64,000 nucleotides of DNA from Oscillospiraceae bacterium (GTDB taxonomy: Bacteria; Bacillota; Clostridia; Oscillospirales; CAG-382). Positions 24,221-52,494 of this stretch are shown here, piece after piece. A model generated the notes under the pieces. That model was not told the origin of the DNA. It was given only the letters and a program-made list of their open reading frames with translations, and made no database searches. The stretch covers positions 1 through 64,000 of the forward strand of contig SVRW01000009.1 in assembly GCA_015064625.1 (NCBI GenBank). The letters are read 5' to 3'. The position numbers were made by a program, and so were the translations under genes. Positions within the stretch are counted from its first letter, which is position 1, and each line of letters starts with the position of its first letter.

Positions 24221-24997
24221 TCAGCTTTGGGAATAATAAACTTTAAGCTTCGTTGAGTTTCCGTTCCAGAATTCGCCTTTTTTGACTTTATCCCATTCGG
24301 AAGAAGTGCCTACATAATATATGGTTTCCAGATTTTCGCAAAGCTCAAAGGCACATATGCCGATGGAATTTATGGACGATGGAATAGTTATTTCTTTAAG
24401 TTCTTCGCAAAGGAAAAAGGTGTATTGTTCAATGGAGGTAATTCCTTCTGGAAGCTCTATTTTTTCAAGAGAAGAACACATGGAGAATGCGTATTCTCCT
24501 ATGTGGGAAATATTTTCGGGTATTTTGATCTCTTTTATATGGTCACATCCACCGAATGCATTTGCTCCGATAACAATAAGACTTTCGGGAAGCTTTATGC
24601 TCTCCAATCCGTCACATTCATAGAAAGCTTTTTCACCTATATGTGTAACTCCTTCAGGCATATAAATTTCCTTAATCGTATTCATTGCGCTGAAAGCAAA
24701 GTTTCCAACAGACGTTATTCCGTCGTAAAGGACAACGGTTTTAACGCTGTTTCTGTTCTTGTACCAAGGTGTTGCCGTAAAGGATTCGTAATCGGGCATA
24801 CCCCCTTCTCCAATAATTTCAAGGGTTCCGTTGTTTATTTTCCACTCAAAATTTTCAGCCACAGCGGGGGCTGGGGGAGCGGGATTTTTTGACTCTTGAC
24901 CGTTTTGATTCGTTTTTTTATTTTCACCACATGACGAGGTTACAATTATTGAAAAAATCAAAGCAAGGCAAAGAAAAATCTTTTTTGTAATGTTCAT
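24221..24997 (-). CDS. BspA-type leucine-rich-repeat lipoprotein
   Basis: A 258-residue protein, start set at 24997 because AAGGAG lies 9 nt upstream; a longer frame to 25048 would cover the promoter. The signal peptide ends in the lipobox VTSSC. After a short linker come five or six LRR_5/BspA repeats: VTHIGEKAFYECDGLESIKLPE, ISHIGEYAFSMCSSLEKIELPE and ITSIEQYTFFLCEELKEITIPS are three of them (quoted as landmarks THIGEKAFYEC, SHIGEYAFSMC, TSIEQYTFFLC). BspA repeats in gut bacteria often mediate adhesion. It precedes the Sel1 gene. Confidence 0.92.
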   Translation of the reverse strand: MNITKKIFLCLALIFSIIVTSSCGENKKTNQNGQESKNPAPPAPAVAENFEWKINNGTLEIIGEGGMPDYESFTATPWYKNRNSVKTVVLYDGITSVGNFAFSAMNTIKEIYMPEGVTHIGEKAFYECDGLESIKLPESLIVIGANAFGGCDHIKEIKIPENISHIGEYAFSMCSSLEKIELPEGITSIEQYTFFLCEELKEITIPSSINSIGICAFELCENLETIYYVGTSSEWDKVKKGEFWNGNSTKLKVYYSQS

Positions 24998-25038
24998 ATT
25001 AACGCTCCTTGTAATTTTGGGTGAATATTTACATATTG

Positions 25039-25067
25039 ATTTTAACATAAGAAAGGCCGTTTGTCAA
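25039..25067 (-). promoter_or_regulatory. Sigma-A promoter for the BspA/Sel1 pair
   Basis: Minus-strand TTGACA (25062-25067), 17-bp spacer and TAAAAT (25039-25044), about 42 nt upstream of the start at 24997. Confidence 0.82.
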
Positions 25068-25865: not shown

Positions 25866-26222
25866 TTTTTTGAGGAAATTTTTCTCCGTTGGTCGAAACC
25901 ATAAGGCGATAGGGAATAGGCAAGAGGCAAGAGTAAAAATTTTCTTTCCTATTGCCTATCACGGCACAGGGGACGGTTCATTTAATGCGGAATGCGGAAT
26001 TCGTAATTCGGAATTGAGGAATTTTTCTCCCGTTGGTCGAAACCGTAAGGCAAGAGGCAAGAGGCAAGAGGGAAGGAAGTTTTTCTCCCGTTGGTCGAAA
26101 AATATTTTATATAAATGCTTTTCGACCGTAGAGAGAAAAGCTACCTGTATTCCGCATTCCGCATTGAAAAAAAGTTCCGAATTCCGAATTCCGAATTGGA
26201 AAAAAGTTCCGCATTCCGCATT
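25866..26222. repeat. Modular intergenic repeat downstream of the glycosidase array
   Basis: Half-core (25873-25901) joined to GGCAAGA heptamers, a GGGGACGGTTC segment (25960-25986), ATGCGGA/ATTCGGA heptamers, another half-core with GGCAAGA units, then a complete core (26075-26144) with ATTCCGM tail and GGAAAAAAGTTCC spacers up to the stop of the first glycosidase gene. Confidence 0.9.
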
Positions 26223-26224
26223 GT

Positions 26225-28885
26225 TTAATAGTTTCTATAAACGTAATTAAGTCTGCCAAGAGGGGCGGCGTCGCCTAATTCGTAAAAGGCTTCCATATTG
26301 GAAATCTTCACTACTGAATCAACCCATTTAAATGAAACGTTGATTTTGCTGTAATCGGAAATTTCCAACATTTCAAGGGGAACAGCAATCATCATTTTAT
26401 TGTCCTTTACTCTGTAGGAAACCTCGCCAACTGTCTTGAATATATATGACGTTGAGTTTTCGCCTTTTGCAACCTTTGCGACGGTTGTTGTGAACTGATT
26501 TTTTGCTTCGTGGTTGATAACGTAATCGTATCCGTACCAGCCGTCAAGATTTTTTCCGTCGGTATTGATAAATAGTTGCATCCATGCGGAATCCGTATCG
26601 TACATTGAGATATCTTCCGCAGTTTCAACGTAGAAATACAGATTTTTCGTGTCAGACGTTACTTTTGCGGAAACTATATCGTTTCTGCCTGTCTGGTTTA
26701 CGTATTTTTTTTCGTCCCATCCTGATTCGCATCTGTCGTTGCAATCGTTTTGTGGGTCTGTGTAGGTTACTTTAACGCTGTCCCACTGGGAAAATTCGCC
26801 TGTAACGTTGATTGGCTTTCTGCTGTCCTGAATTATAACGGGAGCAGAACCTTTAAGTTTTGAAACGTTTTCCATGAGTTGGAGGTAATAGTTATCGAAA
26901 TAGAAGCCTCTTGTCATTTCAATATCACGGCTGTATTCGGAACTGAACGTATCGATGAACACTATTTCTTGCTCATCACCCTCCCCCGGCACTTGTCTTT
27001 GCGCGATCCATTCGTTCCAGCCTGTAATGAGAACGTATTTTATGCTTTGGGATGGGTTATTTGCGGAATTTTTTATACATTCAAATACTCTGTCCCACTG
27101 GGCTTGGAAATTATATCCGTATTTGTAGGAATCCTCGGTGACTTCCTTTTCGCTTACCGCTTCGGATTTACCAACGGTTGATCTTCCTCTGTTGGATTTA
27201 TCCCCATAAAGTCCTGAACTTGAAAAAACTGTGTTTCCGCTATGTTGAGCAACGGAAACGCTTATAGCTTCTCCAACGCCTTCCTTATTTTTGTATACGT
27301 ATTGAGGCCATTTGAAATCGATCCAGGGCCATGCGTTTCTCTTGTTATTTTCAGTGGGCCATTGAGGAAGTCTTATTGTGAAAAAATCATCAATATTGTC
27401 GCTTTCCTGCGCTACAATAACGGGTTTGCCGTCAATCATGAACCATGTGTCAGGGTAATAGTTTGGCATGTATATGTCGTTGTAAAGTTGACTTACGACG
27501 CTTGCAGAATCAGAGTTTGTATAGAAAACAACTTGCGGTGCATCAAATCCTTGTTCGTTGAGTTCGTGGCATACTTTCATAACCGTTTTCGCGACGTGAG
27601 TATACGTCCATCCGTTTGTAACGTCAAAATAAAGAAAATCTATATTTGCATTTGATAGAAGTTCCATATGTTTTCTTATTACCCATTCGTCACGGGAAAA
27701 GTAATATCCGTAAAAGGGTTCTCCCCAGAAATGCCAACCGTATTCTCCGCCCCATGCACCGCACGCCAAACTTTGTGCCGCTGTGCCGTATTCAGCGATT
27801 ATCTTATTTATATCGTAAACTTTTCCACCCCAATAATCTTCAAGCCACATAAAATAGAAAATTCCAACGTAGTATTCACCGTTTTCACCGTAGATACCGA
27901 CTTTGTCGGAGTTGGGAAGGGTTCTTTTTAAATCATCTGTTGCCGCATATCCGCCAAACAGATATTTTTTGTCGTTGGGAACGGTATATGAAACGTTTTC
28001 ACCCTCTTTTACGTAGAAAATAGTAACTGTTCCGTCACCGTTGTCCTTGATGTCAAGAGTGCCCTCGTAGTTATCAAGGTCGGATACTACTTGTTCCACG
28101 TATTCGGGGTCGTCCCACTCAACTTGTCCTGCTTCGTTTATTCTGCTTTCGTTGTAATCATAAGCGTTGAATTTCTCTGCATTTTCCAAAGTTTCAAAAC
28201 CCGCTATGTATTTTATATCAACCGTAACGCCTTCTATTGTACTGGGGTCAATTCTGAGTGACGTGATATATACGTCTTTCACGCAAAGTGAACCGATGTC
28301 TAATATTAAAGTTTTAAATTCATCAGTTTTTTCCAAATTATATTCAAAATACGAACCAGTCTGTCCCATAAACATTCCGTCGGAACGATCGACAAACAAC
28401 TGAGCAGGTGTGCTTTCGCTTGATTTGTATAAAATGTAGAGGTACTTCATTTTATAGGAGGTGCAGGTTGGTGTTTGAATTCGTACATACGGGTCATGCG
28501 ACAACGCCTTGAAACTAACGTACCCTTCTTGATTGAAGGTATATTCTATTGCATTTGGCCAATAAAATTGTGAAAGACATTCTTCTTTTGTGAAATCGAC
28601 GAAATAGTTAACACCTTTTCCATCAAACTCAGTTCCGTTTTTTGTTGCTCCCCACTCGTCTACGTAGGCGTTGACGTTGGTGTATTCTTCAAAGCCCGTT
28701 GTGTCCTCGGACTCCTCTTCCTCGAAATATTCTTCGGAAACGTCCTTCGATTCATCCACGGAACTTTCAAAGGACACTTGCGGTTCACTTGAAACGTTAC
28801 TTTCGTTGCCGTTTGTGCATCCTGCGATGGAGGAAGTCAGCAACGCTATAATAATCATTGTACTTAAAAGTTTTAGTTTTTTCAT
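26225..28885 (-). CDS. GH71/GH99-like glycosidase lipoprotein, paralogue 1
   Basis: An 886-residue surface lipoprotein; start at 28885 because CTGGAGC precedes this ATG and upstream codons only translate the repeat. The lipobox is SIAGC (Cys23), followed by a Glu/Ser linker to about residue 68 and a beta-sandwich-like domain (70-260, with TVDIKYIAGFETLE). The likely (beta/alpha)8 catalytic region runs about 300-690: WHFWGEPFYGYYFSRDEWVIRKHMELL, NIDFLYFDVTNGWTY, VIVAQESDNIDDFF and TGWNEW. The C-terminal domain (NLYFYVETAEDISM, WMQLFINTDG, YGYDYVINHE) resembles CBM9/DOMON modules. The family cuts alpha-glycans (mannan or glucan types); the substrate is not determinable. Last gene of the five-gene array. 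Confidence 0.85.
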   Translation of the reverse strand: MKKLKLLSTMIIIALLTSSIAGCTNGNESNVSSEPQVSFESSVDESKDVSEEYFEEEESEDTTGFEEYTNVNAYVDEWGATKNGTEFDGKGVNYFVDFTKEECLSQFYWPNAIEYTFNQEGYVSFKALSHDPYVRIQTPTCTSYKMKYLYILYKSSESTPAQLFVDRSDGMFMGQTGSYFEYNLEKTDEFKTLILDIGSLCVKDVYITSLRIDPSTIEGVTVDIKYIAGFETLENAEKFNAYDYNESRINEAGQVEWDDPEYVEQVVSDLDNYEGTLDIKDNGDGTVTIFYVKEGENVSYTVPNDKKYLFGGYAATDDLKRTLPNSDKVGIYGENGEYYVGIFYFMWLEDYWGGKVYDINKIIAEYGTAAQSLACGAWGGEYGWHFWGEPFYGYYFSRDEWVIRKHMELLSNANIDFLYFDVTNGWTYTHVAKTVMKVCHELNEQGFDAPQVVFYTNSDSASVVSQLYNDIYMPNYYPDTWFMIDGKPVIVAQESDNIDDFFTIRLPQWPTENNKRNAWPWIDFKWPQYVYKNKEGVGEAISVSVAQHSGNTVFSSSGLYGDKSNRGRSTVGKSEAVSEKEVTEDSYKYGYNFQAQWDRVFECIKNSANNPSQSIKYVLITGWNEWIAQRQVPGEGDEQEIVFIDTFSSEYSRDIEMTRGFYFDNYYLQLMENVSKLKGSAPVIIQDSRKPINVTGEFSQWDSVKVTYTDPQNDCNDRCESGWDEKKYVNQTGRNDIVSAKVTSDTKNLYFYVETAEDISMYDTDSAWMQLFINTDGKNLDGWYGYDYVINHEAKNQFTTTVAKVAKGENSTSYIFKTVGEVSYRVKDNKMMIAVPLEMLEISDYSKINVSFKWVDSVVKISNMEAFYELGDAAPLGRLNYVYRNY

Positions 28886-28904
28886 GTTTGCTCCAGAAAA
28901 TAGG

Positions 28905-29104
28905 GAATTAATTCGTAATTCGTAATTCGTAATTCGTAATTCGGAATTGAGGAAGTTTTTCTCCCGTTGGTCGAAAAATATTTTATATAATTGCTTTTCG
29001 AACGCAGAGAGAAAAGCTACCTTTATTCCGCATTCCGCATTCCGCATTCCGCATTGGAAAAAAGTTCCGAATTACGAATTGGAAAAAAGTTCCGCATTCC
29101 GCAT
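28905..29104. repeat. Modular repeat between paralogues 1 and 2
   Basis: GTAATTC/ATTCGGA heptamers, core 28951-29021, then ATTCCGC heptamers and two GGAAAAAAGTTCC spacers ending 4 nt before the stop codon of paralogue 2. Confidence 0.92.
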
Positions 29105-29107
29105 TGT

Positions 29108-32083
29108 TTAATAGTTTCTATAAACGTAATTAAGTCTGCCAAGAGGGGCGGCGTCGCCTAATTCGTAAAAGGCTTCCATATTGGAGATCTTTACTACGGA
29201 ATCAGCCCATTTGAATGAAACGTTGATTTTGCTGTAATCGGAAATTTCCAACATTTCAAGGGGAACAGCAATCATCATTTTATTATCCTTTACTCTGTAG
29301 GAAACCTCGCCCACGGTTTTGTAGCTGTAGGTGTTTGAATTTTTAGAAACCTTTGCAACGGTTGTTTTAAATTGGCTTAAAGCTTCATGGTTGATAATGT
29401 AATCGTAGCCATACCAGCCGTTTGTACCTTTTTCATCTGTGTTGATGAAAAGCTGCATCCACGAAGAATCCGTATCGTACATGGAGATATCTTCCGCAGT
29501 TTCAACGTAGAAATACAGATTTTTTGTATCAGACGTTACTCTTGCGGAAACTATATCGTTTCTTCCTGTCTGATTTACGTATTCTGTCTTTCCAAATCCC
29601 AATTCGCCTCTGTCGTTGCAATCGTTTTTGGGGTCTGTATACGTAACCTTAACGCTGTCCCACTGGTCGAATTCGCCTGTTACGTTAATAGGCTTTCTGC
29701 TGTCCTGAATAATTACGGGAGCGGCACCCTTGAGCTTTGAAACGTTTTGTATCAGTTGGAGGTAATAATTATCAAAATACAAACCTCTTGTCATTTCCAA
29801 ATCACGGCTGTATTCAGCATTGAACGTATCGACAAAGTATATGGGGAAGGCAGGGCTGATGTCGGGGCTTAGTCTTGTTGCAACCCATTCGTTCCAACCT
29901 GTAACGAGAACGTATTTTATGCTTTGTGATGGGTTATTTGCGGAATTTTTTATACATTCAAATACTCTGTTCCATTGAGCTTGGAAATTATATCCGTATT
30001 TGTAGGAATCCTTTGTAACCTTTTGGGAGCTTACTGCTTCGGAGCTACCAACGGTTGATCTTCCTCTGTTGGATTTATCACCATAAAGTCCTGAGCTTGA
30101 GAAACAAACATTTCCACTATGCTGGGCAACTGAAACGCTTATTGCTTCTCCAACTCCGCTTTTGTTGGTATAAACACGCTGAGGCCATTTGAAATCCATC
30201 CAGGGCCATGAGTTTGTCTTATCGGCTTCGGTTGGCCATTGTGGAAGTCTTATTGTGAAGAAATTGTCTATATTGTCGCTTTCCTGCGCTACGATAACAG
30301 GCTTACCGTCAACGTAAAACCACGTATCAGGATAAAGATTTGGTTTGTATATTTCATCGTAAACGTTGCGAACTGCACTATCTGAAAGTGAGTTAGTATA
30401 GAAAACAATCTGAGGCGCATCGTAACCTTGTTCATTCAGTTCATGACATACCTTCATAATAGTCTTTGCAACGCGAATATAGGTAAAGCCGTTTGTAACG
30501 TCCAAATAAAGGAAATCTATATTTGCATTGGAAAGAAGCTCCATATGCTTTCTTATTACCCATTCGTCACGGGAATAGTAATAGCCGTAAAGAGGTTCGC
30601 CCCAGTGATGCCATGCTCCTTCGGGACCCCAACCTTCGCAATACAAGTTCTTGGCGGCAGGACCGTATTTTGCGATTATCTTATTTATGTCGTAAACGTC
30701 AAAATCTCCATGTTCTCCTAAAAGCATAAAATAGAACATTCCAACGTAAAATTCACCGTTATCACCGTAAACACCGACCATGTTGGAATCAGGAAGACTT
30801 CTTTGCAAATCATCCGTTGCCGCGTATCCACCCGATATGTAATTTGCATTATTTGGCACAGTATATGTAACCTTTTCACCGTTTTTAACGTAGGAAATAG
30901 TAACTGTTCCGTCACTATTGTCCTTCATTTCTAACGTACCCTCGTAGTTATCAAGGTCTGATACTACTTGCTCCACGTATTCAGGAGTGCTCCATTCTGC
31001 GTCAACGGCATAATTCACTCTTTCGCCTTTGAAATTTTTGGCGTCGAAGCTTTGCGCATCTTCTAAAGTATCAAAGCCTGCAATGTATTTTATATCAATG
31101 GTAAGGTTAGGTTCTACCATAGGGTCTATTCTGAATTCTGTGAAATACACCTTGTCGGCACAAAGTATATCCGCATCAACTATTATAAAGCCAAAATCTT
31201 CTTGCTTTTTAAATTCAAAGGGGCGTACTGAACCGTGCAAACCCATCCATATTCCGTCTGATCTGTTGACGACCAATTCAGCGTACATATCCTGATTTGC
31301 TCTGTATTCGATACGTACGTATCTCATGCTTTTTGAAAAAAGCTTTGGCGTTCTTATGCTGAGATGAGGATCATTGTCCAAGGATTTGAAGCGAACGTAT
31401 CCTTCCTTTTGGAAGGAATACTCTATTCCGTAAACGTTGAAAAACTCTTTCGTACATTCTTCTTTTGTAAAATCAAAGAAATACGAAGGAGCCTCTTCGT
31501 TTGGAACGGTTTCGTTGTGTATAGCTCCGAATTCGTCAACGGAAACGTTTGGATTTAAATACGGTTCCGGCATAAAAAGATCATATAATCCAAGAAAATA
31601 TGCTTTAATTTGCATATAGTCCGTTCCGCTAATAGAGTCGTCAGCGTCTGTGTCTGCAGCAATAAATTGTATCTTATCGAAATTGTACTTACCAAGAAAA
31701 TAGCTCTTTATCTGCATATAGTCAGTAGACGTTATTAAACCGTCTCCATTGGTATCACCACTAATTATAACATACGCAGAATCTTTGCCTATAGTAATCA
31801 ATGTTCCTGTTCCGACCAAATCATTTTTTGCAAGTGTTTTACCGTTTTTGGTCACGCTTATAGAGCTGGAAGATTCAAAGTTTGACAAAAGCGTATCAAC
31901 TGTCTTTTTTTCTGAAAAATTTATAATGAACTTTGTATCTTCGATAACACTAATTGAAAGTATGCTGTTTGCTTTAAGAGTGAGTGTATCTTCTGCGTAA
32001 ACAGTTATAAATGTAAACAGGGAAAGAAGCATACACAATGTCAAAAATTGAGATAAAAATTTTAATGCTTTGTTTTTTTTCAT
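29108..32083 (-). CDS. GH71/GH99-like glycosidase with N-terminal dockerin, paralogue 2
   Basis: A 991-residue secreted enzyme. Unlike its four neighbours it has a type I signal peptide (ending ITVYA, about residue 30), not a lipobox. Residues 31-105 form the same pre-dockerin module as in the gene at the left edge (LVGTGTLITIG...AYVIIS), and residues about 108-168 are a dockerin (SGDTNGDGLITSTDYMQIKSY, DTDADDSISGTDYMQIKAY). From about residue 178 the protein follows the array consensus: sandwich domain, catalytic region with YGYYYSRDEWVIRKHMELL and TGWNEW, and a CBM9-like C-terminus. It is nearly identical to paralogue 4 across the sandwich domain. It would join a cohesin scaffold rather than the membrane. 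ATGGAG precedes the start. Confidence 0.88.
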   Translation of the reverse strand: MKKNKALKFLSQFLTLCMLLSLFTFITVYAEDTLTLKANSILSISVIEDTKFIINFSEKKTVDTLLSNFESSSSISVTKNGKTLAKNDLVGTGTLITIGKDSAYVIISGDTNGDGLITSTDYMQIKSYFLGKYNFDKIQFIAADTDADDSISGTDYMQIKAYFLGLYDLFMPEPYLNPNVSVDEFGAIHNETVPNEEAPSYFFDFTKEECTKEFFNVYGIEYSFQKEGYVRFKSLDNDPHLSIRTPKLFSKSMRYVRIEYRANQDMYAELVVNRSDGIWMGLHGSVRPFEFKKQEDFGFIIVDADILCADKVYFTEFRIDPMVEPNLTIDIKYIAGFDTLEDAQSFDAKNFKGERVNYAVDAEWSTPEYVEQVVSDLDNYEGTLEMKDNSDGTVTISYVKNGEKVTYTVPNNANYISGGYAATDDLQRSLPDSNMVGVYGDNGEFYVGMFYFMLLGEHGDFDVYDINKIIAKYGPAAKNLYCEGWGPEGAWHHWGEPLYGYYYSRDEWVIRKHMELLSNANIDFLYLDVTNGFTYIRVAKTIMKVCHELNEQGYDAPQIVFYTNSLSDSAVRNVYDEIYKPNLYPDTWFYVDGKPVIVAQESDNIDNFFTIRLPQWPTEADKTNSWPWMDFKWPQRVYTNKSGVGEAISVSVAQHSGNVCFSSSGLYGDKSNRGRSTVGSSEAVSSQKVTKDSYKYGYNFQAQWNRVFECIKNSANNPSQSIKYVLVTGWNEWVATRLSPDISPAFPIYFVDTFNAEYSRDLEMTRGLYFDNYYLQLIQNVSKLKGAAPVIIQDSRKPINVTGEFDQWDSVKVTYTDPKNDCNDRGELGFGKTEYVNQTGRNDIVSARVTSDTKNLYFYVETAEDISMYDTDSSWMQLFINTDEKGTNGWYGYDYIINHEALSQFKTTVAKVSKNSNTYSYKTVGEVSYRVKDNKMMIAVPLEMLEISDYSKINVSFKWADSVVKISNMEAFYELGDAAPLGRLNYVYRNY

Positions 32084-32099
32084 AATTTACTCCATAAAA

Positions 32100-32402
32100 T
32101 AGTGGTTAGGCAGGAGGAAAGAGGCATTTAATTCGGAATTCGGAATTCGTAATTCGGAATTGAGGAAATTTTTCTCCCGCCCGTCGAAAAATATTTTATA
32201 TAATTGCTTTTCGAACGCAGAGAGAAAAGCTACCTTTATTCCGCATTCCGCATTCCGCATTCCGCATTCCGCATTCCGCATTTCGCATTCCGCATTTCGC
32301 ATTCCGCATTTCGCATTCCGCATTTCGCATTCCGCATTCCGCATTCCGCATTGGAAAAAAGTTCCGAATTACGAATTGGAAAAAAGTTCCGCATTCCGCA
32401 TT
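32100..32402. repeat. Modular repeat between paralogues 2 and 3, longest heptamer tail
   Basis: ATTCGGA heptamers, core 32164-32234, then about 17 consecutive heptamers of ATTCCGC with alternating ATTTCGC variants (32237-32352), two GGAAAAAAGTTCC spacers, and ATTCCGC units up to the next stop codon. Confidence 0.94.
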
Positions 32403-32404
32403 GT

Positions 32405-35035
32405 TTAATAATTTCTATAAATAAAGTTAAGTCTTCCCAAAGGGGCGGCGTCGCCCACTTCGTAGAAAGCTTCCATATTGGAAATCTTTACTACTGAATC
32501 AGCCCATTTGAATGAAACGTTGATTTTGCTGTAATCGGTAATTCCAAGCATTTCAAGGGGAACAGCAATCATCATTTTGTTATCCTTTACTCTGTAGGAA
32601 ACCTCGCCTACGGTTTTGTACTCGTAAGAAATTGATTTTCTCTTTTCTTCAACCTTAGAGACGGTTGTTGTGAACTGGCTTTTTGCTTCGTGATTTATAA
32701 TGTAATCATAGCCGTACCAGCCGTTTAACCCTTCCCCGTCTGTGTTTACAAAAAGCTGCATCCATGCGGAGTCGGTATCGTACATGGAGATATCTTCTGC
32801 GGTTTCAACGTAGAAGTAAAGGTTTTTCGTGTCGGACGTAACCTTTGCGGAAACTATATCGTTTCTTCCTGTCTGATTTATATATTGGCTGTTTCCGAAG
32901 CCTCTTTCGTATCTGTCGTTGCAATCGTTTTTGGGGTCTGTGTACGTAACTTTTACGCTATCCCATTGGTCGAACTCGCCTGTTACGTTAATAGGCTTTC
33001 TGCTGTCTTGAATTATAACGGGAGCGGCACCCTTAAGCTTATAAACGTTTGAGATAAGCTGGAGGTAATAGTTATCAAAATATTCGCCTCTCGTCATTTC
33101 TAAATCACGGCTGTATTCGGAATTGAAGGTATCACAGAAGAAAATTTCCTGATCCTCTCTCAACGGGTCTCCTATTCTTCCTGCCGTCCATTCGTTCCAG
33201 CCTGTAACGAGAACGTATTTTATGCTGTCCGCAGGGTTAGTTGCGGAAGATTCTATACATTCAAACACTCTGTCCCATTGTGCCTGAAAATTATATCCGA
33301 ATTTGTAAGATTGCTTCGTAATTGCTTTTGAGCTTTCTGCTTGTGATTTACCAACGGTGGATCTGCCTCGATCCTCTGTTCCGCCGTAAAGCCCTGCTGT
33401 GGAGAAAAGGATGGTTCCGCTATGCTGGGCTACGGAAACACTTATGGCTTCGCCAACGCCTTCCTTGTTTTTGTATACGGTTTGAGGCCATTTGAAATCG
33501 ATCCAGGGCCATGCGTTTGTTCTGTCTGCGTCCGTTGGCCATTGTGGAAGTCTTATTGTAAAGAAATCATCAATATTGTCTTCTTCTTCAGCTACGATAA
33601 CGGGTTTGCCGTCAACGTAGAACCATGTGTCGGGATAATAATTTTGTCTGTATATTTCATCGTAAAGGACGCGTACAACTGCATTGGAATACGATTTCGT
33701 ATAGAAGACAATCTGAGGAGCATCAAAGCCCTGCTCGTTTAACTCGTGACAAATTCTCATAACGAGTTTTGCGTTGTAAGTGTACGTAAATGCATTGGAA
33801 ACGTCTAAATAAAGGAAATCTATATTTGCATTGGAGAGGAGCTCCATATGCTTTCTTATTAACCATTCATCTCTTGAATAGTAATATCCGTAAAGGGGTT
33901 CGCCCCAAAAATGCGTATCACCCACATCTCCCCATCCGCCGCAGGCTAAGTATTGTGCGGCAGGGCCGTACGTTTCAATTATCTTGTTTATATCGAAAAT
34001 GCCTGAGTCGTTATGCTCACCCATACACAAAAAGTAGAACATACCAACGTAGTATTCTCCGTTTTCGCCATAGATTCCAACTGTGTTTGAATCGGGAAGC
34101 GTTCTTCTTAAATCATCCGTTGCCGCATATCCGCCCGATAAATAGTTTTCGTTGTTGGGAACTGTATGTGAAACGTTTTGACCGTCCTTCACGTAGGAAA
34201 TAGTAACTGTTCCGTCACCGTTGTCCTTCATTTCTAACGTGCCGTCGAAGTTATCCAAATCGGATACCACTTGCTCTACGTATTCGGGAGTATCCCATTC
34301 AACCTCGCCTGCAGAATGGATTTTGTCACTGTTGAAGCCTTCAGCATCAAAGCTTTCTGCCGCTTCTTTTGTTTCAAAGGCTGCAATGTATTTTATATCA
34401 ACGGTAACATCAGGAATTATACCGGGGTCAATTCTTAATTCGGTGAAATACACGTTTTCCACACAAATTGAGCTGATATCCAATATCAAAGCTTCGAAAT
34501 CGTCAACCTTTTTAAGCTCAAAGTACATGTGTGAGCCTTCTTGCCCCATGAATATTCCGTCTGATCTGTTTACGAACAGCTCACCGTGTGTGTTTTCACT
34601 TGAGCGGTATTCAATGCGAAGGTACTTCATTTTTTCAGAAAGTGTTTTAGGCTTTTCAAAACATACGAAAGGGTCATTGCTTGTGGACTTGAAGCTTACG
34701 TATCCTTCTTCATTGTGGGTTATTTCCACGCCATTGATGCCGTAAAGGTACCCCATGGTGTCTTTGCTTGAGAAATCTATAAAATACGTTGGAATTTCTT
34801 CGTTCAGTAACGTTTTGTTATGCGTATTGCCCCAACTGTCAACGTATGCGTTAGGGTTTATATATTCATTAAATGATACTTCTGAAGATTCTTCAGAAGT
34901 ATTTCCAGCGGAAACGTATGAAGCTTCGCTGTCCGAAGAACTGTTTATGCTCTCGTTACCGTCGGTACATCCTGCAAAAGAGGAAGCCAACATAGCTATA
35001 ATTAGCATTGTGCTTAAAAGTTTTAATTTTTTCAT
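32405..35035 (-). CDS. GH71/GH99-like glycosidase lipoprotein, paralogue 3
   Basis: An 876-residue lipoprotein; start at 35035 (MKKLKLLSTM) where TGGAGTACATT gives a ribosome binding site. The lipobox is SFAGC. The linker is shorter than in paralogues 1 and 4. Catalytic landmarks are kept: WGEPLYGYYYSRDEWLIRKHMELL, NIDFLYLDVSNAFTY, VIVAEEEDNIDDFF and TGWNEW. The C-terminal CBM9-like domain is present. Distinct residues near the catalytic DVTNG position (DVSNA here) suggest slightly different specificity. Same strand as the other four, with only repeat sequence between. Confidence 0.85.
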   Translation of the reverse strand: MKKLKLLSTMLIIAMLASSFAGCTDGNESINSSSDSEASYVSAGNTSEESSEVSFNEYINPNAYVDSWGNTHNKTLLNEEIPTYFIDFSSKDTMGYLYGINGVEITHNEEGYVSFKSTSNDPFVCFEKPKTLSEKMKYLRIEYRSSENTHGELFVNRSDGIFMGQEGSHMYFELKKVDDFEALILDISSICVENVYFTELRIDPGIIPDVTVDIKYIAAFETKEAAESFDAEGFNSDKIHSAGEVEWDTPEYVEQVVSDLDNFDGTLEMKDNGDGTVTISYVKDGQNVSHTVPNNENYLSGGYAATDDLRRTLPDSNTVGIYGENGEYYVGMFYFLCMGEHNDSGIFDINKIIETYGPAAQYLACGGWGDVGDTHFWGEPLYGYYYSRDEWLIRKHMELLSNANIDFLYLDVSNAFTYTYNAKLVMRICHELNEQGFDAPQIVFYTKSYSNAVVRVLYDEIYRQNYYPDTWFYVDGKPVIVAEEEDNIDDFFTIRLPQWPTDADRTNAWPWIDFKWPQTVYKNKEGVGEAISVSVAQHSGTILFSTAGLYGGTEDRGRSTVGKSQAESSKAITKQSYKFGYNFQAQWDRVFECIESSATNPADSIKYVLVTGWNEWTAGRIGDPLREDQEIFFCDTFNSEYSRDLEMTRGEYFDNYYLQLISNVYKLKGAAPVIIQDSRKPINVTGEFDQWDSVKVTYTDPKNDCNDRYERGFGNSQYINQTGRNDIVSAKVTSDTKNLYFYVETAEDISMYDTDSAWMQLFVNTDGEGLNGWYGYDYIINHEAKSQFTTTVSKVEEKRKSISYEYKTVGEVSYRVKDNKMMIAVPLEMLGITDYSKINVSFKWADSVVKISNMEAFYEVGDAAPLGRLNFIYRNY

Positions 35036-35078
35036 AATGTACTCCAGAAAATAGTGGTTATGTAAGGGGGGATAGAAC

Positions 35079-35311
35079 ACGGCACAGGGGACGGTTCATT
35101 TAATGCGGAATTCGTAATTCGTAATTCGGAATTGAGGAAATTTTTCTCCCGCCGGTCGAAAAATATTTTATTTAAATGCTTTTCGAACGCAGAGAGAAAA
35201 GCTACCTTTATTCCGCATTCCGCATTCCGCATTCCGCATTCCGAATTGGAAAAAAGTTCCGCATTCCGAATTCCGCATTCCGAATTGGAAAAAAGTTCCG
35301 CATTCCGCATT
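35079..35311. repeat. Modular repeat between paralogues 3 and 4
   Basis: GGGGACGGTTC segment (35079-35104), GTAATTC heptamers, core 35136-35206, ATTCCGC heptamers and two GGAAAAAAGTTCC spacers. It ends 3 nt before the stop codon of paralogue 4. Confidence 0.93.
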
Positions 35312-35313
35312 GT

Positions 35314-38022
35314 TTAATAATTTCTATAAATATAATTAAGTCTTCCCAGAGGTGCGGCGTCGCCTAATTCGTAGAAAGCTTCCATATTGGAAATCTTTAC
35401 TACTGAATCAGCCCATTTGAATGAAACGTTGATTTTGCTGTAATCGGTAATGCCGAGCATTTCAAGGGGAACAGCGATCATCATCTTGTTGCCTTTTACT
35501 CTGTAGGAAACCTCGCCTACGGTTTTGTAGTTGTAGGAATTTGTTTCTTTGTTCTTATAAAGCTTAGAGACTGTTGTTTTAAATTGGCTCAATGCTTCGT
35601 GATTTATAACGTAATCGTAGCCGTACCAGCCGTTTGTACCTTTTTCATCTGTGTTGATGAAAAGCTGCATCCATGAGGAATCAGTATCGTACATTGAAAT
35701 GTTTTCTGCAGTTTCAACGTAGAAATACAGATTTTTCGTATCAGACGTAACCTTTGCAGAAACTATATCGTTTCTTCCCGTCTGGTTTACGTATTCTGTT
35801 TTTCCAACTCCTAATTCTGCTCTGTCGTTGCAATCGTTTTTTGGGTCTGTATAAGTAACTTTAACGCTGTCCCATTGGTCGAATTCGCCCGTTACGTTAA
35901 TAGGCTTTCTGCTGTCCTGAATAATTACGGGAGCGGCACCTTTGAGCTTTGAAACGTTTGAAATCAACTGCATATAATAATTATCAAAATACAAGCCTCT
36001 TGTCATTTCAATATCACGGCTGTATTCGGAGTTGAAGGTATCGCAGAAGAATATTGGGACAGCAGGACTGATATCGGGGCTTAGTCTTGATGCAACCCAT
36101 TCGTTCCAACCTGTAACGAGAACGTATTTTATGCTTTGGGATGGGTTATTTGCGGAATTTTTTATACATTCAAATACTCTGTCCCATTGGGCTTGGAAAT
36201 TATATCCGTATTTGTAGGAATCCTCGGTGACTTCCTTTTTGCTTACCGCTTCGGATTTACCAACGGTTGATCTTCCTCTGTTGGATTTATCCCCATAGAG
36301 TCCTGAGCTTGAGAAACAAATGCTTCCACTATGCTGGGCAACTGAAACGCTTATGGCTTCTCCAACGCCTTCCTTGTTTTTGTATACGGTTTGAGGCCAT
36401 TTAAAATCTATCCAGGGCCATGAGTTTTTCTTGTCAGCTTCTGTTGGCCATTGTGGAAGTCTTATTGTGAAGAAATCGTCAATATTGTTTTCTTCCTGCG
36501 TTACGATAACAGGTTTACCGTCAACGTAAAACCACGTATCGGGATAAAGATTTGGCTTGTATATTTCATCGTAAATCTGACGGACGGCGTTTTCTGAGAG
36601 GGAATTCGTATAGAAAACAATCTGAGGTGCGTCAAAGCCTTGTTCGTTCAGCTCGTGACATACCTTCATAACAGTTTTTGCTACGCGAGTATACGTCCAT
36701 CCGTTTGTAACGTCAAAATAAAGGAAATCTATATTTGCATTGGAAAAAAGCTCCATATGCTTTCTTATTACCCATTCGTCACGGTAATAATAATAACCGT
36801 AAAGAGGTTCGCCCCAGAAATGCCAAGCTCCTTCGGGACCCCAACCTTCACAGTTTAAGTTCTTGGCGGCAGGACCGTATTTTGCGATTATCTTATTTAT
36901 ATCGTAAACGTCAAAGTCTCCATGTTCTCCGCACAACAGAAAATAAAACATTCCAACGTAGTATTCACCATTTTCACCGTAGATACCAACTTTGTTGGAG
37001 TTGGGAAGGGTTCTTTTTAAATCATCTGTTGCCGCATAACCACCTGATATGTAATTTGCATTATTTGGCACAGTATATGAAACTTTTTCGCCGTTTTTAA
37101 CGTAGGAAATAGTTACTGTTCCGTCTTTATTCTCTTTAAAATCAAGAGTGCCTTCAAAGTTGTCAAGGTCTGATACTACTTGTTCCACGTATTCAGGAGT
37201 GTCCCATTCAGCGTCAACGGCATAATTCACTCTTTCGCCTTTGAAGTTTTTGGCGTCGAAGCTTTGCGCGTCTTCTAAAGTATCAAAGCCTGCAATGTAT
37301 TTTATATCAATGGTAAGGTCAGGCATTGCCATAGGGTCTATTCTGAATTCTGTGAAATACACCTTGTCGGCACAAAGTACATCCGCATCCACTATTATAA
37401 AGCCAAAATCTTCTTGCTTTTTAAATTCGAAGGGGCGTACTGAACCGTGCAGTCCCATCCATATTCCGTCTGATCTGTTGACAACCAATTCAGCGTACAT
37501 ATCCTGACTTGCTCTGTATTCGATACGTACGTATCTCATGCTTTTTGAAAAAAGCTTTGGCGTTCTTATGCTGAGATGAGGATCATTATCTAAAGATTTG
37601 AAGCGAACGTATCCTTCCTTTTGGAAGGAATACTCTATTCCGTAAACGTTGAAAAACTCTTTCGTACATTCTTCTTTTGTAAAATCAAAGAAATACGAAG
37701 GAGCTTTTTCGTCGGGAACGGTTTCGTTATATATAGACCCGAATTCGTCAACGGAAACGTCTTGGTTCACGTATTCTTCAAAGCCTGTTGTATCCTCGGA
37801 CTCCTCTTCTTCTTCTTCGGATTCATCTTCGGACGATTCCTCTGATGATTCTTCTGATGATTCTTCTGATTTGTCTTTTGATTCATCCGCAACGCTTTCA
37901 ACAGATACTTGCGACGTTTCTGCGGAACTGTTTTCGCTGACGTCGCCCTCTGTACATCCTGCAAAAGAGGAAGTCAGCATTGATATAATTAGCATTGTGC
38001 TTAAGATTTTTAGTTTTTTCAT
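35314..38022 (-). CDS. GH71/GH99-like glycosidase lipoprotein, paralogue 4
   Basis: A 902-residue lipoprotein starting at 38022 (MKKLKILSTM), with TTGGAGTAAAT before the ATG. Lipobox SFAGC; the linker is the longest of the family, a run of SSEE units encoded by a 15-bp tandem repeat (about 37800-37880). The sandwich domain (SYFFDFTKEECTKEFFNVYG onwards) is almost identical to paralogue 2, as is most of the catalytic region (YGYYYYRDEWVIRKHMELF, FDVTNGWTY, TGWNEW). The C-terminal CBM9-like domain is complete. A lipoprotein twin of the dockerin-bearing paralogue 2. Confidence 0.86.
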   Translation of the reverse strand: MKKLKILSTMLIISMLTSSFAGCTEGDVSENSSAETSQVSVESVADESKDKSEESSEESSEESSEDESEEEEEESEDTTGFEEYVNQDVSVDEFGSIYNETVPDEKAPSYFFDFTKEECTKEFFNVYGIEYSFQKEGYVRFKSLDNDPHLSIRTPKLFSKSMRYVRIEYRASQDMYAELVVNRSDGIWMGLHGSVRPFEFKKQEDFGFIIVDADVLCADKVYFTEFRIDPMAMPDLTIDIKYIAGFDTLEDAQSFDAKNFKGERVNYAVDAEWDTPEYVEQVVSDLDNFEGTLDFKENKDGTVTISYVKNGEKVSYTVPNNANYISGGYAATDDLKRTLPNSNKVGIYGENGEYYVGMFYFLLCGEHGDFDVYDINKIIAKYGPAAKNLNCEGWGPEGAWHFWGEPLYGYYYYRDEWVIRKHMELFSNANIDFLYFDVTNGWTYTRVAKTVMKVCHELNEQGFDAPQIVFYTNSLSENAVRQIYDEIYKPNLYPDTWFYVDGKPVIVTQEENNIDDFFTIRLPQWPTEADKKNSWPWIDFKWPQTVYKNKEGVGEAISVSVAQHSGSICFSSSGLYGDKSNRGRSTVGKSEAVSKKEVTEDSYKYGYNFQAQWDRVFECIKNSANNPSQSIKYVLVTGWNEWVASRLSPDISPAVPIFFCDTFNSEYSRDIEMTRGLYFDNYYMQLISNVSKLKGAAPVIIQDSRKPINVTGEFDQWDSVKVTYTDPKNDCNDRAELGVGKTEYVNQTGRNDIVSAKVTSDTKNLYFYVETAENISMYDTDSSWMQLFINTDEKGTNGWYGYDYVINHEALSQFKTTVSKLYKNKETNSYNYKTVGEVSYRVKGNKMMIAVPLEMLGITDYSKINVSFKWADSVVKISNMEAFYELGDAAPLGRLNYIYRNY

Positions 38023-38059
38023 ATTTACTCCAAAAAATAGGTAATAGGTAAGGGGGGAT

Positions 38060-38251
38060 AGAACACGGCATAGGGGACGGTTCATTTAATGCGGAATGCG
38101 GAATGCGGAATGCGGAATAAAGGTAGCTTTTCTCTCTGCGTTCGAAAAGCAATTATATAAAATATTTTTCGACGGGTGGGAGAAAAATTTCCTCAATTCC
38201 GAATTCCGAATTCCGAATTACGAATTGGAAAAAAGTTCCGCATTCCGCATT
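38060..38251. repeat. Modular repeat between paralogues 4 and 5, core inverted
   Basis: GGGGACGGTTC segment (38064-38090), ATGCGGA heptamers, core 38122-38192 in the reverse orientation compared with the three junctions to its left, and ATTCCGA heptamers ending at the stop codon of paralogue 5. Confidence 0.92.
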
Positions 38252-38253
38252 GT

Positions 38254-40899
38254 TTAATAATTTCTATAAATATAATTAAGTCTTCCCAAAGGTGCGGCGT
38301 CGCCCAATTCGTAGAAAGCTTCCATGTTGGAAATCTTTACTACTGAATCTGCCCATTTGAAGCTGATATTGATTTCGCTGTAATCCCTGATTCCAAGCAT
38401 TGCGAGGGGAACAGCAATCATCATTTTGTTGTCTTTTACTCTATATGAAACTTCGCCCATGGTTTTGTAGTTGTAGGAATTTGCTTCTTTGCTTTTAGAA
38501 ACCTTAGAGACGGTTGTTGTAAACTGACTTTTCGCTTCGTGATTTATAATATAATCGTAGCCATACCAACCGTTTGACCCTTTACCGTCCGTGTTTATAA
38601 AGAGTTGCATCCATGCGGAATCCGTATCGTACATGGAGATATCTTCTGCTGTTTCAACGTAGAAATAAAGGTTTTTCGTGTCGGACGTTACTTTTGCGGA
38701 AACTATATCGTTTCTTCCTGTCTGATTTATATATTGGCTGTTTCCGAAGCCCGTTTCGAATCTGTCGTCGCAATCGCTTTTTGGGTCTGTATAAGTAACT
38801 TTAACGCTGTCCCATTGGTCAAAATCGCCTGTTACGTTAATAGCTTTTCTGCTATCCTGAATAATAACAGGAGCTGTGCCTTTGAGTTCTGAAATATTTG
38901 AAATGAGCTGGAGATAATAATTATCAAAATACAAACCTCTTGTCATTTCAAGATCACGGCTGTATTCAGTATTAAAGGCATCAATGAATGATATTTCCTG
39001 TCCCTCAAACATTCCCGGCTGCTGTCTTTGTGCAACCCATTCGTTCCAGCCTGTAACGAGAACGTATTTTATGTTTTTGGTGTGGTCGTTCACAGATTCT
39101 TCCAAGCAGGAAAAAACTCTGTCCCATTGGGCTTGGAAATTATATCCGTATTTGTAGGAATCCGCTGTTACGGGTTTTGTGCTTTCTGCCTGAGTTATTC
39201 CAACGGTTGATCTGCCCCTGTTGGATTCATTACCGTAAAGACCTGAGCTTGAAAAAATTATGTTTCCACTATGCTGTGCGACGGAAACGCTTATTGCCTC
39301 TCCAACGCCTTCTTCATTTTGGTATACGCCTTGAGGCCATTTGAAATCGATCCATGGCCAGCCGTCTGGACGATCTGCTTCCGTTGGCCATTGGGAGATT
39401 TTCACCGTAAAGAAATCATCAATATTGAAATTTTTATCATCAGCTATGATAACGGGTTTTCCGTCAACCATAAACCATGTATCAGGATAATAGTTCTTTT
39501 GGTATATTTCATCGTAATAGGTGCGTACGGACAGTTCTGAGTTTGCTTTTGTAAAGAAAACGATTTGAGGAGCATCGTAGCCTTGCTCGTTCATTTCGTG
39601 ACATACCTTCATAACTTTTTTTGCGTTCTCGACGTATGTGAAACCGTTTCCTATATCAAAATAGAGGAAGTCTATATTTGCATTGGAAAGAAGCTCCATA
39701 TGCTTACGTATGATCCATTCGTCTCTTGAATGGTAATATCCGTAAAGGGGCTCGCCCCAGAAATGCCACTCGCCTACGTTTCCCCAAGCACCGCAAGACA
39801 AGCTCTGTGCCGCTGTGCCGTATTTGGCGATTATCTTGTTTATATCGTAAACCCCTGGGTCGCCATGCTCTCCCAACCAGAGAAAATAGAAAATTCCAAC
39901 GTAGAATTCTCCATTGCTACCGTAAAAACCAACTTCTCTTGAATCGGGAAGATATCTCTTTAAATCATCCGTTGCCGCATAGCCGCCTTGTGTGTAATTT
40001 ACGTTATTTGGCACGGTGTATGAAATAGGTGAACCGTTATTCTTGTATGAAATAGTAACTGTTCCGTCGCCGTTATCCTTTATATCGAGAGTGCCGTCAA
40101 AGTTATCCAAATCGGATACAACTTGCTCTACGTATTCGGGCGTGTCCCATTCAACGTCGCCTGGTTTATTGAGTCGTTCTACCTTGGATTTTTGCAAGTC
40201 AAAGCTTTCTGCTTTTTCCAACGTTTCAAAGCCCGCTATATATTTTATATCCACAGTAATGCCTTCTGCTATGGTAGGGTCAATTCTGAACTCTGTGAAA
40301 GAAACGTCTTTTGCACACATTGGGCTGATATCCAATATCAAAGTTTTGAATTCTTCGGTTTTTTCAATTTCGTAGATAAAATACGCACCGTTCTGTCCCA
40401 TCATTGTGCCGTCTGATCTGCTTACGTGCAGTTCGGCGTTGGTGTTTTCGCTTGATCTGTATACAATGCGGAGATACTTCATTTTTTCAGAAAGGATGTT
40501 AGGTCTTTTAAGGCATAAGAATGGGTCGAACGTTAAAGCCTTGAAGCTTACGTATCCTTCTTCTTGGTAGGAATATTCCACGCCGTTGATCCAATAAAAC
40601 TGGTCCATGGTTTCTTTGCTTGAAAAGTCAACGAAATAATTGGGGAAGTCTTCGCTGAGCATGGTTTTATTATGTATTGCTCCATATTCATCCGTCCAGA
40701 CGTTTTCGTTGATATATTCTACGGGATCTCCTTCGGGTTCAGGATATTCTTCTCTTGACGTATCCGTTGAAACCTCGGAAGATACTTGCGACGTTTCTGT
40801 GGAACTGTTTTCGCTGACATTCCCGTTTGTACATCCTGCAAAAGAGGAAGTTAACGAGGCAATAATTAACATGATGCTTAATAATTTTAATTTTTTCAT
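38254..40899 (-). CDS. GH71/GH99-like glycosidase lipoprotein, paralogue 5 (first of the array)
   Basis: An 881-residue lipoprotein starting at 40899 (MKKLKLLSIM) with GAGGTTGAA upstream. Lipobox SFAGC. It is the most divergent of the five: HSRDEWIIRKHMELL, FDIGNGFTY, VKISQWPTEADRPD and TGWNEW mark the catalytic region. The C-terminal CBM9-like domain is retained. It is the only member with a clear sigma-A promoter directly upstream, so it probably leads transcription of the whole minus-strand array, possibly with readthrough across the repeat junctions. Confidence 0.86.
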   Translation of the reverse strand: MKKLKLLSIMLIIASLTSSFAGCTNGNVSENSSTETSQVSSEVSTDTSREEYPEPEGDPVEYINENVWTDEYGAIHNKTMLSEDFPNYFVDFSSKETMDQFYWINGVEYSYQEEGYVSFKALTFDPFLCLKRPNILSEKMKYLRIVYRSSENTNAELHVSRSDGTMMGQNGAYFIYEIEKTEEFKTLILDISPMCAKDVSFTEFRIDPTIAEGITVDIKYIAGFETLEKAESFDLQKSKVERLNKPGDVEWDTPEYVEQVVSDLDNFDGTLDIKDNGDGTVTISYKNNGSPISYTVPNNVNYTQGGYAATDDLKRYLPDSREVGFYGSNGEFYVGIFYFLWLGEHGDPGVYDINKIIAKYGTAAQSLSCGAWGNVGEWHFWGEPLYGYYHSRDEWIIRKHMELLSNANIDFLYFDIGNGFTYVENAKKVMKVCHEMNEQGYDAPQIVFFTKANSELSVRTYYDEIYQKNYYPDTWFMVDGKPVIIADDKNFNIDDFFTVKISQWPTEADRPDGWPWIDFKWPQGVYQNEEGVGEAISVSVAQHSGNIIFSSSGLYGNESNRGRSTVGITQAESTKPVTADSYKYGYNFQAQWDRVFSCLEESVNDHTKNIKYVLVTGWNEWVAQRQQPGMFEGQEISFIDAFNTEYSRDLEMTRGLYFDNYYLQLISNISELKGTAPVIIQDSRKAINVTGDFDQWDSVKVTYTDPKSDCDDRFETGFGNSQYINQTGRNDIVSAKVTSDTKNLYFYVETAEDISMYDTDSAWMQLFINTDGKGSNGWYGYDYIINHEAKSQFTTTVSKVSKSKEANSYNYKTMGEVSYRVKDNKMMIAVPLAMLGIRDYSEINISFKWADSVVKISNMEAFYELGDAAPLGRLNYIYRNY

Positions 40900-41069: not shown

Positions 41070-41350
41070 TAGGAGGCAAGAGTAAAAATTTTCTTTCCTA
41101 CTGCCTATCACGGCACAGGTGACGGTTCATTTAATTCGGAATTCGGAATGCGGAATAAAGGTAGCTTTTCTCTCTACGGTCGAAAAGCAATTATATAAAA
41201 TATTTTTCGACCAACGGGAGAAAAATTCCCTTCCCTCCTGCCTCTTGCCTCTTGCCTTATGGTTTCGACCAACGGGAGAAAAATTTCCTCAATTCCGAAT
41301 TCCGCATTCCGCATTCCGAATTGGAAAAAAGTTCCGCATTCCGCATTGCG
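41070..41350. repeat. Modular repeat between the glycosidase array and the transporter operon
   Basis: GGGACGGTTC-like segment with one change (41110-41135), ATTCGGA heptamers, inverted core (41160-41230), GGCAAGA heptamers in reverse, a half-core, ATTCCGC heptamers and a GGAAAAAAGTTCC spacer. Confidence 0.9.
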
Positions 41351-41376: not shown

Positions 41377-42774
41377 ATGAAGCTTAATTACAAACGAACG
41401 GTGCTTGTGGGAATGGCATTCTTTCTCATAACGTGCTTCTGGCAGGCGTATGATGCCATTGTTCCCCTTATCCTTACAAACCATTTCGGACTTCCTCAAA
41501 CCTTTTCGGGCGCGGTTATGTCCATTGACAACGTGTTGGCGGTTTTCCTGCTCCCGCTTTTCGGAACGATTTCCGATAAGGTAAACACGAAATACGGAAA
41601 AAGAACGCCGTTTATATTCTTCGGCACGATTGTTTCCGTCATTTCTTTCGTATGCCTGACTTTTATTGACAACTATCAGCTTTCAAAGGTTATAGCGGCA
41701 GGCATCCCACAGCTTTCACAGGGCGGAATGTCCGACGAAGCGTATACGGAATTCGTGAGAAAAACAGCTTACGAGCTAACGTTGGAAAATCCCCTTCCTC
41801 TCGTTGGATTTATCGCAACCCTTTTGGTTGTCCTCGTTGCAATGGCAGTTTTCCGTTCTCCTGCAGTAGCTCTTATGCCCGACGTAACCGTAAAGCCCTT
41901 GCGTTCAAAGGCTAACGCCATAATTAACCTTACGGGAACAGTCGGCGGAATAATAGTTCTCGCGCTTGGTATGGTTTTTGCAACGTCCAAAAATCAGTAT
42001 ATGGAATATACGCCTTACGTTATTGCGGTTTGTTCCGTAATGCTTGTTGGATTTGTGATTTTCATGCTCACGGTCAAAGAAAACAAATGGGCGAAGGAAA
42101 TGGAAGAAGAATCCCTAAATCTTGATTTATCAAGCAATGCAGAGGAAGGTTCTTCAGGTAAGATTTCCAAGGCTGAATTTAAATCACTTTTGCTCATCCT
42201 TGCTTCCGTTGCTCTTTGGTATATCGGATATAACTCCATAACAAGTAAATATACGGTTTATGCAACCAATATCCTTAAATTCGATTTCAACTTCACACTT
42301 ATCGTAGCACAAGGTGCTGCCATAATCTCATACATACCTGTTGGAATAATATCAACGAAGATAGGCAGAAAAAAGACAATTCTTGCAGGCGTTACAATGC
42401 TTGCTGCCGCTTTCACCATAGGTATTTTCATAACCCCCGAAACGCCTGAGGTAATAATGTATCCCATTTTTGCTCTTGCGGGAATCGGCTGGGCAACAAT
42501 AAACGTAAACTCCTTCCCAATGGCAGTTGAGCTGGCTAAAAAAGGTGACGTAGGCAAATATACAGGTTATTATTATACCGCCTCCATGGCGGCGCAAATT
42601 GCCGCTCCGATTCTTTCGGGTATGCTTTACGATGCCTTGGGAATGAGATATACCTTCTTCACCTTCGGTGCAATATTCGTAGTATTTTCTTTCATAACTA
42701 TGCTTTTCGTAAAGCATGGAGATTCGAAGCCTGCAGCGAATAAATCCGCGCTGGAGCATCTTGATGTAGATTAA
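41377..42774 (+). CDS. GPH/MFS-type sugar transporter
   Basis: A 465-residue membrane protein with about 12 hydrophobic segments, starting at 41377 (MKLNYKRTVL) with AGAAAGGA upstream; the frame is open through the preceding repeat but has no start signal there. Features of the glycoside-pentoside-hexuronide/SLC45-like branch of the major facilitator superfamily: FWQAYDAIVPLILTNHFGLP, the first cytoplasmic loop DKVNTKYGKRTPFI, RSPAVALMPDVT and IGWATINVNSFPMAVELA. It probably imports a di- or oligosaccharide with a cation. It starts a three-gene operon and faces away from the glycosidase array. Confidence 0.9.
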   Translation: MKLNYKRTVLVGMAFFLITCFWQAYDAIVPLILTNHFGLPQTFSGAVMSIDNVLAVFLLPLFGTISDKVNTKYGKRTPFIFFGTIVSVISFVCLTFIDNYQLSKVIAAGIPQLSQGGMSDEAYTEFVRKTAYELTLENPLPLVGFIATLLVVLVAMAVFRSPAVALMPDVTVKPLRSKANAIINLTGTVGGIIVLALGMVFATSKNQYMEYTPYVIAVCSVMLVGFVIFMLTVKENKWAKEMEEESLNLDLSSNAEEGSSGKISKAEFKSLLLILASVALWYIGYNSITSKYTVYATNILKFDFNFTLIVAQGAAIISYIPVGIISTKIGRKKTILAGVTMLAAAFTIGIFITPETPEVIMYPIFALAGIGWATINVNSFPMAVELAKKGDVGKYTGYYYTASMAAQIAAPILSGMLYDALGMRYTFFTFGAIFVVFSFITMLFVKHGDSKPAANKSALEHLDVD

Positions 42775-44650: not shown

Positions 44651-44661
44651 CGGAGGATACT

Positions 44662-52451: not shown

Positions 52452-52494
52452 AATGTTCTCCAAATATGATTTTTTGGTTTTCATATATATCTAT

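Follow-up and report, generated by a model that had tools for sequence, protein, structure and literature searches.

The proteins described here are most readily compared with the glycoside hydrolase families GH99 and GH71. GH99 holds endo-alpha-1,2-mannosidases and mannanases (BtGH99, BxGH99 and human MANEA), for which a catalytic motif EW[H/G]E is described (PMC11025385) together with an unusual 1,2-anhydro-sugar route (PMC12394665). The alpha-1,3-glucanases of GH71, such as AnGH71C and Agn1p, are described in the latter source with a D-x-x-E dyad, as in the sequence DYGE. For GH195, an endo C6-sulfated alpha-1,3-mannanase of Polaribacter, a distant relationship to GH99 has been described (PMC13063451). 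Furthermore, the structure of a marine GH99-related protein was solved that is reported, by the title of the paper, as 'lacking catalytic machinery' (Robb 2017), and we infer that PDB entry 5ngw ('Glycoside hydrolase-like protein') is this protein.

The window analysed here, a stretch of 64,000 nucleotides to which all coordinates refer unless a contig is named, is part of contig C38 in the 2.07-Mb draft genome of a gut-type bacterium. The first-pass annotation had reported five consecutive genes of 876-991 codons on one strand, and these were confirmed as minus-strand open reading frames at the same coordinates: W1 (26225-28885, 886 aa), W2 (29108-32083, 991 aa), W3 (32405-35035, 876 aa), W4 (35314-38022, 902 aa) and W5 (38254-40899, 881 aa). 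The starts were placed at an ATG behind a TGGAG-type ribosome site, which is clear in W1-W4; the W1 start listed with its open reading frame (29047) is an in-frame extension that reaches into a dispersed repeat. All five frames are uninterrupted. The other array proteins share 66-71% identity with W1 over an alignment of 1016 columns, and the genes were observed to repeat in register with a spacing of 2.9-3.3 kb at 60-92% nucleotide identity. Because of this register, and because W1-W5 form a single clade beside a copy on contig C19, the pattern is not a product of chance.

The three-part layout that had been proposed for all five proteins was also found to hold, and consists of an N-terminal beta-sandwich, a GH99/GH71-like catalytic barrel and a conserved C-terminal domain of about 200 residues. 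W1, W3, W4 and W5 are lipoproteins, with IAGC or FAGC as the lipobox at about residue 23, whereas W2 has an ordinary signal-like start followed by a type I dockerin (PF00404, E 1.7e-11) ahead of the same layout, in agreement with the four lipoproteins and one dockerin protein that had been annotated. Five cohesin-like matches were found in the same genome, three of them above the curated cut-off, and a docking partner for the W2 dockerin is therefore possible. The segment behind FLYFD does vary among the copies as had been noted, but the FLYFD motif itself is not shared by all, since W2 and W3 carry FLYLD.

The N-terminal part of W5 (residues 82-234 of a model of the whole protein) resembles CBM29-type sandwiches, with 1w8u at Z 13.2; this likeness is by fold only, with an rmsd of 2.9 over 137 residues and 15% identity. 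The C-terminal 200 or so residues form the best-conserved region among W1-W5 (83-93% amino-acid identity) and exceed the N-terminal domain in conservation. No relative of this domain alone was found by sequence in the PDB; by eye, we take it to resemble a CBM9/DOMON-type sandwich. Variants of these parts were noticed elsewhere. For example, a 1778-aa relative (L001, 9809-15145) appears by eye to place several CBM-like repeats ahead of one family core, and another protein (L018, 1-2652), which lacks a catalytic core, has some three domain copies that are similar to the array N-terminal domain, and a C-terminal part that by eye looks like S-layer homology repeats.

The family placement was addressed with 64 core sequences, obtained by reducing 105 aligned segments to the 62 that were unique and covered 450 or more match columns, and by adding the loci L092 and L093. 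As these loci were the ones that scored best in the searches, every count over this set gives too little weight to distant members. The cores of W1-W5 matched no Pfam or NCBIfam model, even at E <= 1, and this includes PF16317 (GH99), whose cut-off they do not reach, and PF03659 (GH71), for which their own genome and the control genomes gave no match either. Weak matches to PF16317 were observed in 11 of the 64 cores (best E 6.5e-7), and to PF14307 (WbsX) in two, where the best match (E 0.0079) does not reach the cut-off; the NCBIfam scan returned none among the 64. Sequence searches of the PDB with W1-W5 alone, or with 11 sequences, gave nothing relevant. The profile of all 64 cores (hmmsearch) retrieved BtGH99 (4acy, E 6.1e-8), BxGH99 (4ad1, E 4.6e-7) and human MANEA (6zdc, E 2.7e-4). 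In addition, hhalign of the family profile against two true GH99s gave a probability of 96.5% and an E of 8.4e-10 over 249 columns, with TGWNEWVA of the family paired with TSFNEWHE. Homology to solved GH99 enzymes was thus detected by sequence in both comparisons.

The fold was examined with two models of W5. A model of the whole protein was poor (pLDDT 59.7), and its residues 331-674 were nearest to MANEA (Z 14.7) and BtGH99 (Z 14.6); 5ngw scored Z 14.0 and the GH71 structure 9fnh Z 13.3. The catalytic domain modelled alone reached a pLDDT of 71.1 and a pTM of 0.76. With Foldseek, its top match was a GH99 structure (4ad2_C, E 1.3e-5, prob 1.00), and the rows at E <= 0.001 numbered 36, of which 35 were GH99 and one was GH71 (9fnf_A, E 4.5e-4, prob 1.00). 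The nearest fold is therefore the (beta/alpha)8 barrel of GH99, although the TM-scores of this model to GH99 are moderate (about 0.3-0.5) and so support the fold class and not its detail. Identity in the fold match is about 12-14%, and the array proteins differ from GH99 further in the missing Pfam match of their cores and in their extra N- and C-terminal domains. The entry 5ngw is not among the PDB matches of the family profile, so that it is at most a putative close relative. By its description, GH195 differs in its marine origin and in its link to a sulfatase, which either forms one protein with it or is encoded alongside (PMC13063451).

A further difference from the known families lies in the catalytic dyad. 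The family motif is N-E-W-x-A, where the first Glu was found to be conserved in all 64 cores. The second dyad position is occupied by Ala in 55, Met in five, Val in two, Ser in one and Thr in one, and by an acid in none, which indicates a loss throughout the sampled family and not in this array alone. Accordingly, every core reads E-[WYF]-x-[AMVST], and neither the two-Glu GH99 motif EW[H/G]E nor the D-x-x-E dyad described for GH71 (PMC12394665) occurs in any of them. The full E-x-x-E is present in two reference GH99 genes and in a WbsX protein encoded next to a Bacteroidales relative. The latter has a complete NEWSE dyad, and the family profile compared against it gave a probability of 5%, which sets WbsX apart from the family in spite of the two weak matches. 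A G-Y-x-S-x-D stretch ahead of a helix in GH99 was also observed to align; the GH99 H[I/L]EPY region pairs with FYTN in the one hhalign comparison made, where the alignment is weak.

In W5, with residues counted from the one after the start Met, the retained acid is Glu619 (codon 39040-39042, minus strand) within WNEWVAQR, and the second position is Ala622. As to the loss of catalytic acids that the first-pass annotation had raised against its own assignment, half of it is seen, since all 64 sequences retain the first Glu and have lost the second acid. Four further acids were found to be invariant in these rows, namely Asp111, Asp335, Asp344 and Glu346 of the W4 core, which correspond to Asp414, Asp639, Asp648 and Glu650 of W5. 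The counterparts of W5 Asp392 and of Ser646-Arg647-Asp648 are invariant as well, as are Arg343, Lys177 and Asn114 (W4 core numbering). Barrel enzymes keep their active-site residues at strand ends, and in the model of the catalytic domain one strand (model residues 108-112) ends with Asp414, and the strand at 309-313 is followed by Glu619. The stretch with Asp648 and Glu650 has a pLDDT under 50 in that model, so that a relocated acid has no structural support and is offered as a hypothesis.

W1-W5 are therefore distant relatives of GH99 and GH71 and members of neither family. The first-pass label 'GH71/GH99-like' is borne out at the superfamily level by the profile, Foldseek and PDB matches, and fails at the level of the catalytic motif, which is that of neither family. 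Filing the proteins as a GH71 or GH99 enzyme was rejected for the same reason. The family itself was not found under a name in the open-licence papers to which the literature search was confined, where GH195 and the protein of Robb 2017 came nearest. The CDD label 'GH99_GH71_like' may already cover such proteins.

The family was found in 25 of 391 genomes of the class, counting the genome studied here, which holds seven family genes (W1-W5 and one copy each on contigs C19 and C18). Eight carriers were fully scored and gave 46, 47, 46, 28, 33, 25, 20 and 4 matches, so that the present genome has fewer genes than seven of these eight have matches. In addition, 36 match rows were observed in a Clostridia MAG from roe-deer rectum and 16 in Oscillospiraceae SIG684, as well as five in a Bacteroidales, three in a Verrucomicrobia and two in a Prolixibacteraceae genome. 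In both sets of counts a match is not always a whole gene, and some genes give two rows. The family occurs in three of 395 Bacteroidota genomes, and on viral contigs two relatives were seen. Among 60 relatives, the present genome included, five have a core match (the genome itself, G001, G023, G031 and G055); a looser tally of 18 of 60 also counts short N-terminal matches outside the core. The earlier view that such a run is unusual needs correction, and a reading of the five-gene run as exceptional was rejected, since arrays of two to four copies recur at seven other loci (L002, L118, L119, L121, L122, L123 and L127) and up to 46-47 matches per Clostridia genome stand against seven genes here. 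A family of this size without a Pfam or NCBIfam model represents a large gap in carbohydrate annotation, and automatic pipelines built on those models would miss it.

In a maximum-likelihood tree of the 64 cores, W1-W5 form one clade (100/99) whose sister is the C19 copy of the same genome (100/99), and the duplications are therefore specific to this lineage; the C18 copy sits on a distant branch. The dS values between pairs of W1-W5 are 0.23-1.9 and often near saturation, and the array duplications are not very recent. For all ten pairs and in three regions, dN/dS was 0.06-0.28, which identifies purifying selection; the specialisation among paralogues suggested in the first-pass annotation is a possibility. 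The N-domains of W2 and W4 are 93% identical, while the sequence ahead of them agrees at about 34-38% in nucleotides. W2 thus has the appearance of a W4-type gene that was given a new front of signal and dockerin.

An element of about 140 bp between heptamer arrays (AATTCGG/ATTCCGC) was found in all six gaps around the genes. Its copies lie downstream of W1 (25984-26165), in the W1/W2 gap (28899-29055), in the W2/W3 gap (32130-32352, with about 16 copies of ATTCCGC), in the W3/W4 gap (35102-35240), in the W4/W5 gap (38088-38244, inverted relative to the other copies) and between W5 and a divergent transporter gene (41133-41322). An open frame in the repeat lengthens the ORF calls upstream of W1 and of the transporter. 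Genome-wide, 78 match rows were obtained, some of which are both strands of one copy, and these are spread over contigs C38, C10, C13, C17, C26, C34, C35 and C42. Such a dispersed repeat could serve recombination.

Hints to the substrate were looked for in the gene neighbourhoods. A Bacteroidales relative (L003) has the order GH78, GH78, GH106, WbsX, family gene, GH20 and a GH88-type gene, and a Prolixibacteraceae relative (L005) the order SusD, GH106, GH106 and family gene, while a second Bacteroidales cluster holds GH127. GH88 enzymes act on unsaturated uronides. Among the matches listed, a family gene has GH106 at a distance of up to about 1-3 kb in genomes G448, G450, G362 and G101; with 46 family and eight GH106 matches in G101, one such pair is by our estimate about what chance would give. 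In G362, a contig with four family genes (L118, G362:C48) has a GH106-like and a 3-keto-disaccharide-hydrolase-like gene among them. At E 1e-5, GH106 gave no match in G447 or in the present genome. The window itself encodes a 1043-aa GH106-like protein (49353-52484) that scores 28.8 against 29 bits, just under the Pfam cut-off, with a GLMA second-domain match, and also a GH78 alpha-L-rhamnosidase gene (62721-63881) that runs on to C38:65195 and has a full length of 824 aa (L128). A SASA-type esterase gene follows the C19 copy, and no other glycosidase was found in the gene neighbourhood of L092. As weak hints, the glycosidase neighbours point to rhamnose- or arabinose-bearing plant-type glycans, possibly pectic ones, as a candidate substrate.

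From these observations, W1-W5 probably belong to an extracellular, catalytically active branch within the GH99/GH71 superfamily, one without the second dyad acid, and were duplicated locally. As in-lineage tandem duplicates from a large unprofiled family, the proteins would be exported and then anchored at the surface, by lipid in W1, W3, W4 and W5 and by the dockerin in W2. The CBM-like N-terminal sandwich and the C-terminal domain would hold the (beta/alpha)8-type domain against a complex glycan, and this domain would most likely cleave the glycan as a glycosidase with Glu619 as one catalytic residue. As the usual partner three residues after Glu619 is gone, the second acid would come from elsewhere, with Asp414 at a barrel strand end, or Asp639, Asp648 or Glu650 in the segment behind the last strand, as candidates. 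The additional copies may serve as variants that differ in their binding and in the loops of the pocket. Judged from sequence and models, the proteins most likely act outside the cell as glycosidases, on a complex glycan in which rhamnose is perhaps present, and we somewhat favour a GH99/GH71-type barrel with a relocated second acid for it. A more specific proposal is more tentative and falls a little short of an even chance: that this is an unnamed CAZy-level family where the dyad acid is replaced from elsewhere in the barrel (Asp414, or an SRD-x-E with Asp648/Glu650), amplified to 20-47 diverged copies in some gut Clostridia as a glycan toolkit. Since GH99 and GH71 share the dyad and differ in mechanism, a branch that retains the first acid alone would make the catalytic evolution of this barrel directly testable.

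The absence of the second dyad acid from all 64 cores would also suit proteins that do no chemistry, and these are the main alternative: a dead GH99-type barrel would serve as a surface glycan binder that captures oligosaccharides for true enzymes. The lipoprotein anchor, the CBM29-like N-terminal fold and the further C-terminal domain agree with capture, as does the fold match of 5ngw. The protein of Robb 2017, which by its title likewise misses the GH99 machinery, is a warning that a barrel of this type may have no activity. We nevertheless regard binding without catalysis as rather unlikely, because the invariance of the kept Glu, the four other acids and Arg343, Lys177 and Asn114 would be difficult to account for if these residues did no chemistry, and because 5ngw is missing from the PDB matches of the profile. 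Should the proteins be binders after all, they would represent a large expansion of a pseudo-enzyme. One invariant Glu without its usual partner could also be read as a catalyst that is not an ordinary hydrolase, with a one-acid reaction such as lyase-type elimination, transglycosylation or substrate-assisted cleavage, for which a general acid where GH99 has its own would be unnecessary. The 1,2-anhydro-sugar route described for GH99 (PMC12394665) offers a precedent, and a GH88-type gene lies near one Bacteroidales relative. That neighbour is a single case, however, and any of the four other invariant acids could act as the second catalytic residue, which makes this chemistry very unlikely in our view.

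A different question is whether the array arose by neutral amplification through repeat recombination, without selection for dosage or specialisation. The repeat in every gap and its many other copies in the genome would allow for this, as would the 93% identical N-domains of W2 and W4 behind differing first parts. The low dN/dS of all ten pairs, the five intact frames and the inverted orientation of one repeat copy argue against it, and we consider it unlikely. Since neutral amplification concerns the origin of the array and not its function, it may be compatible with the glycosidase explanation.

The immediate surroundings of the array were also inspected. An MFS/GPH-type sugar transporter gene (41378-42774, plus strand), whose start was put at the ATG after the repeat, is divergent from the array and is a possible candidate partner of it. 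On the other side, a Sel1-repeat protein (21023-24142) and a BspA-type leucine-rich-repeat protein (24221-25048) adjoin the array. A ToxN-type toxin gene, the toxin of a type III toxin-antitoxin system, was observed at 44527-45150 (PF13958, E 1.9e-45).
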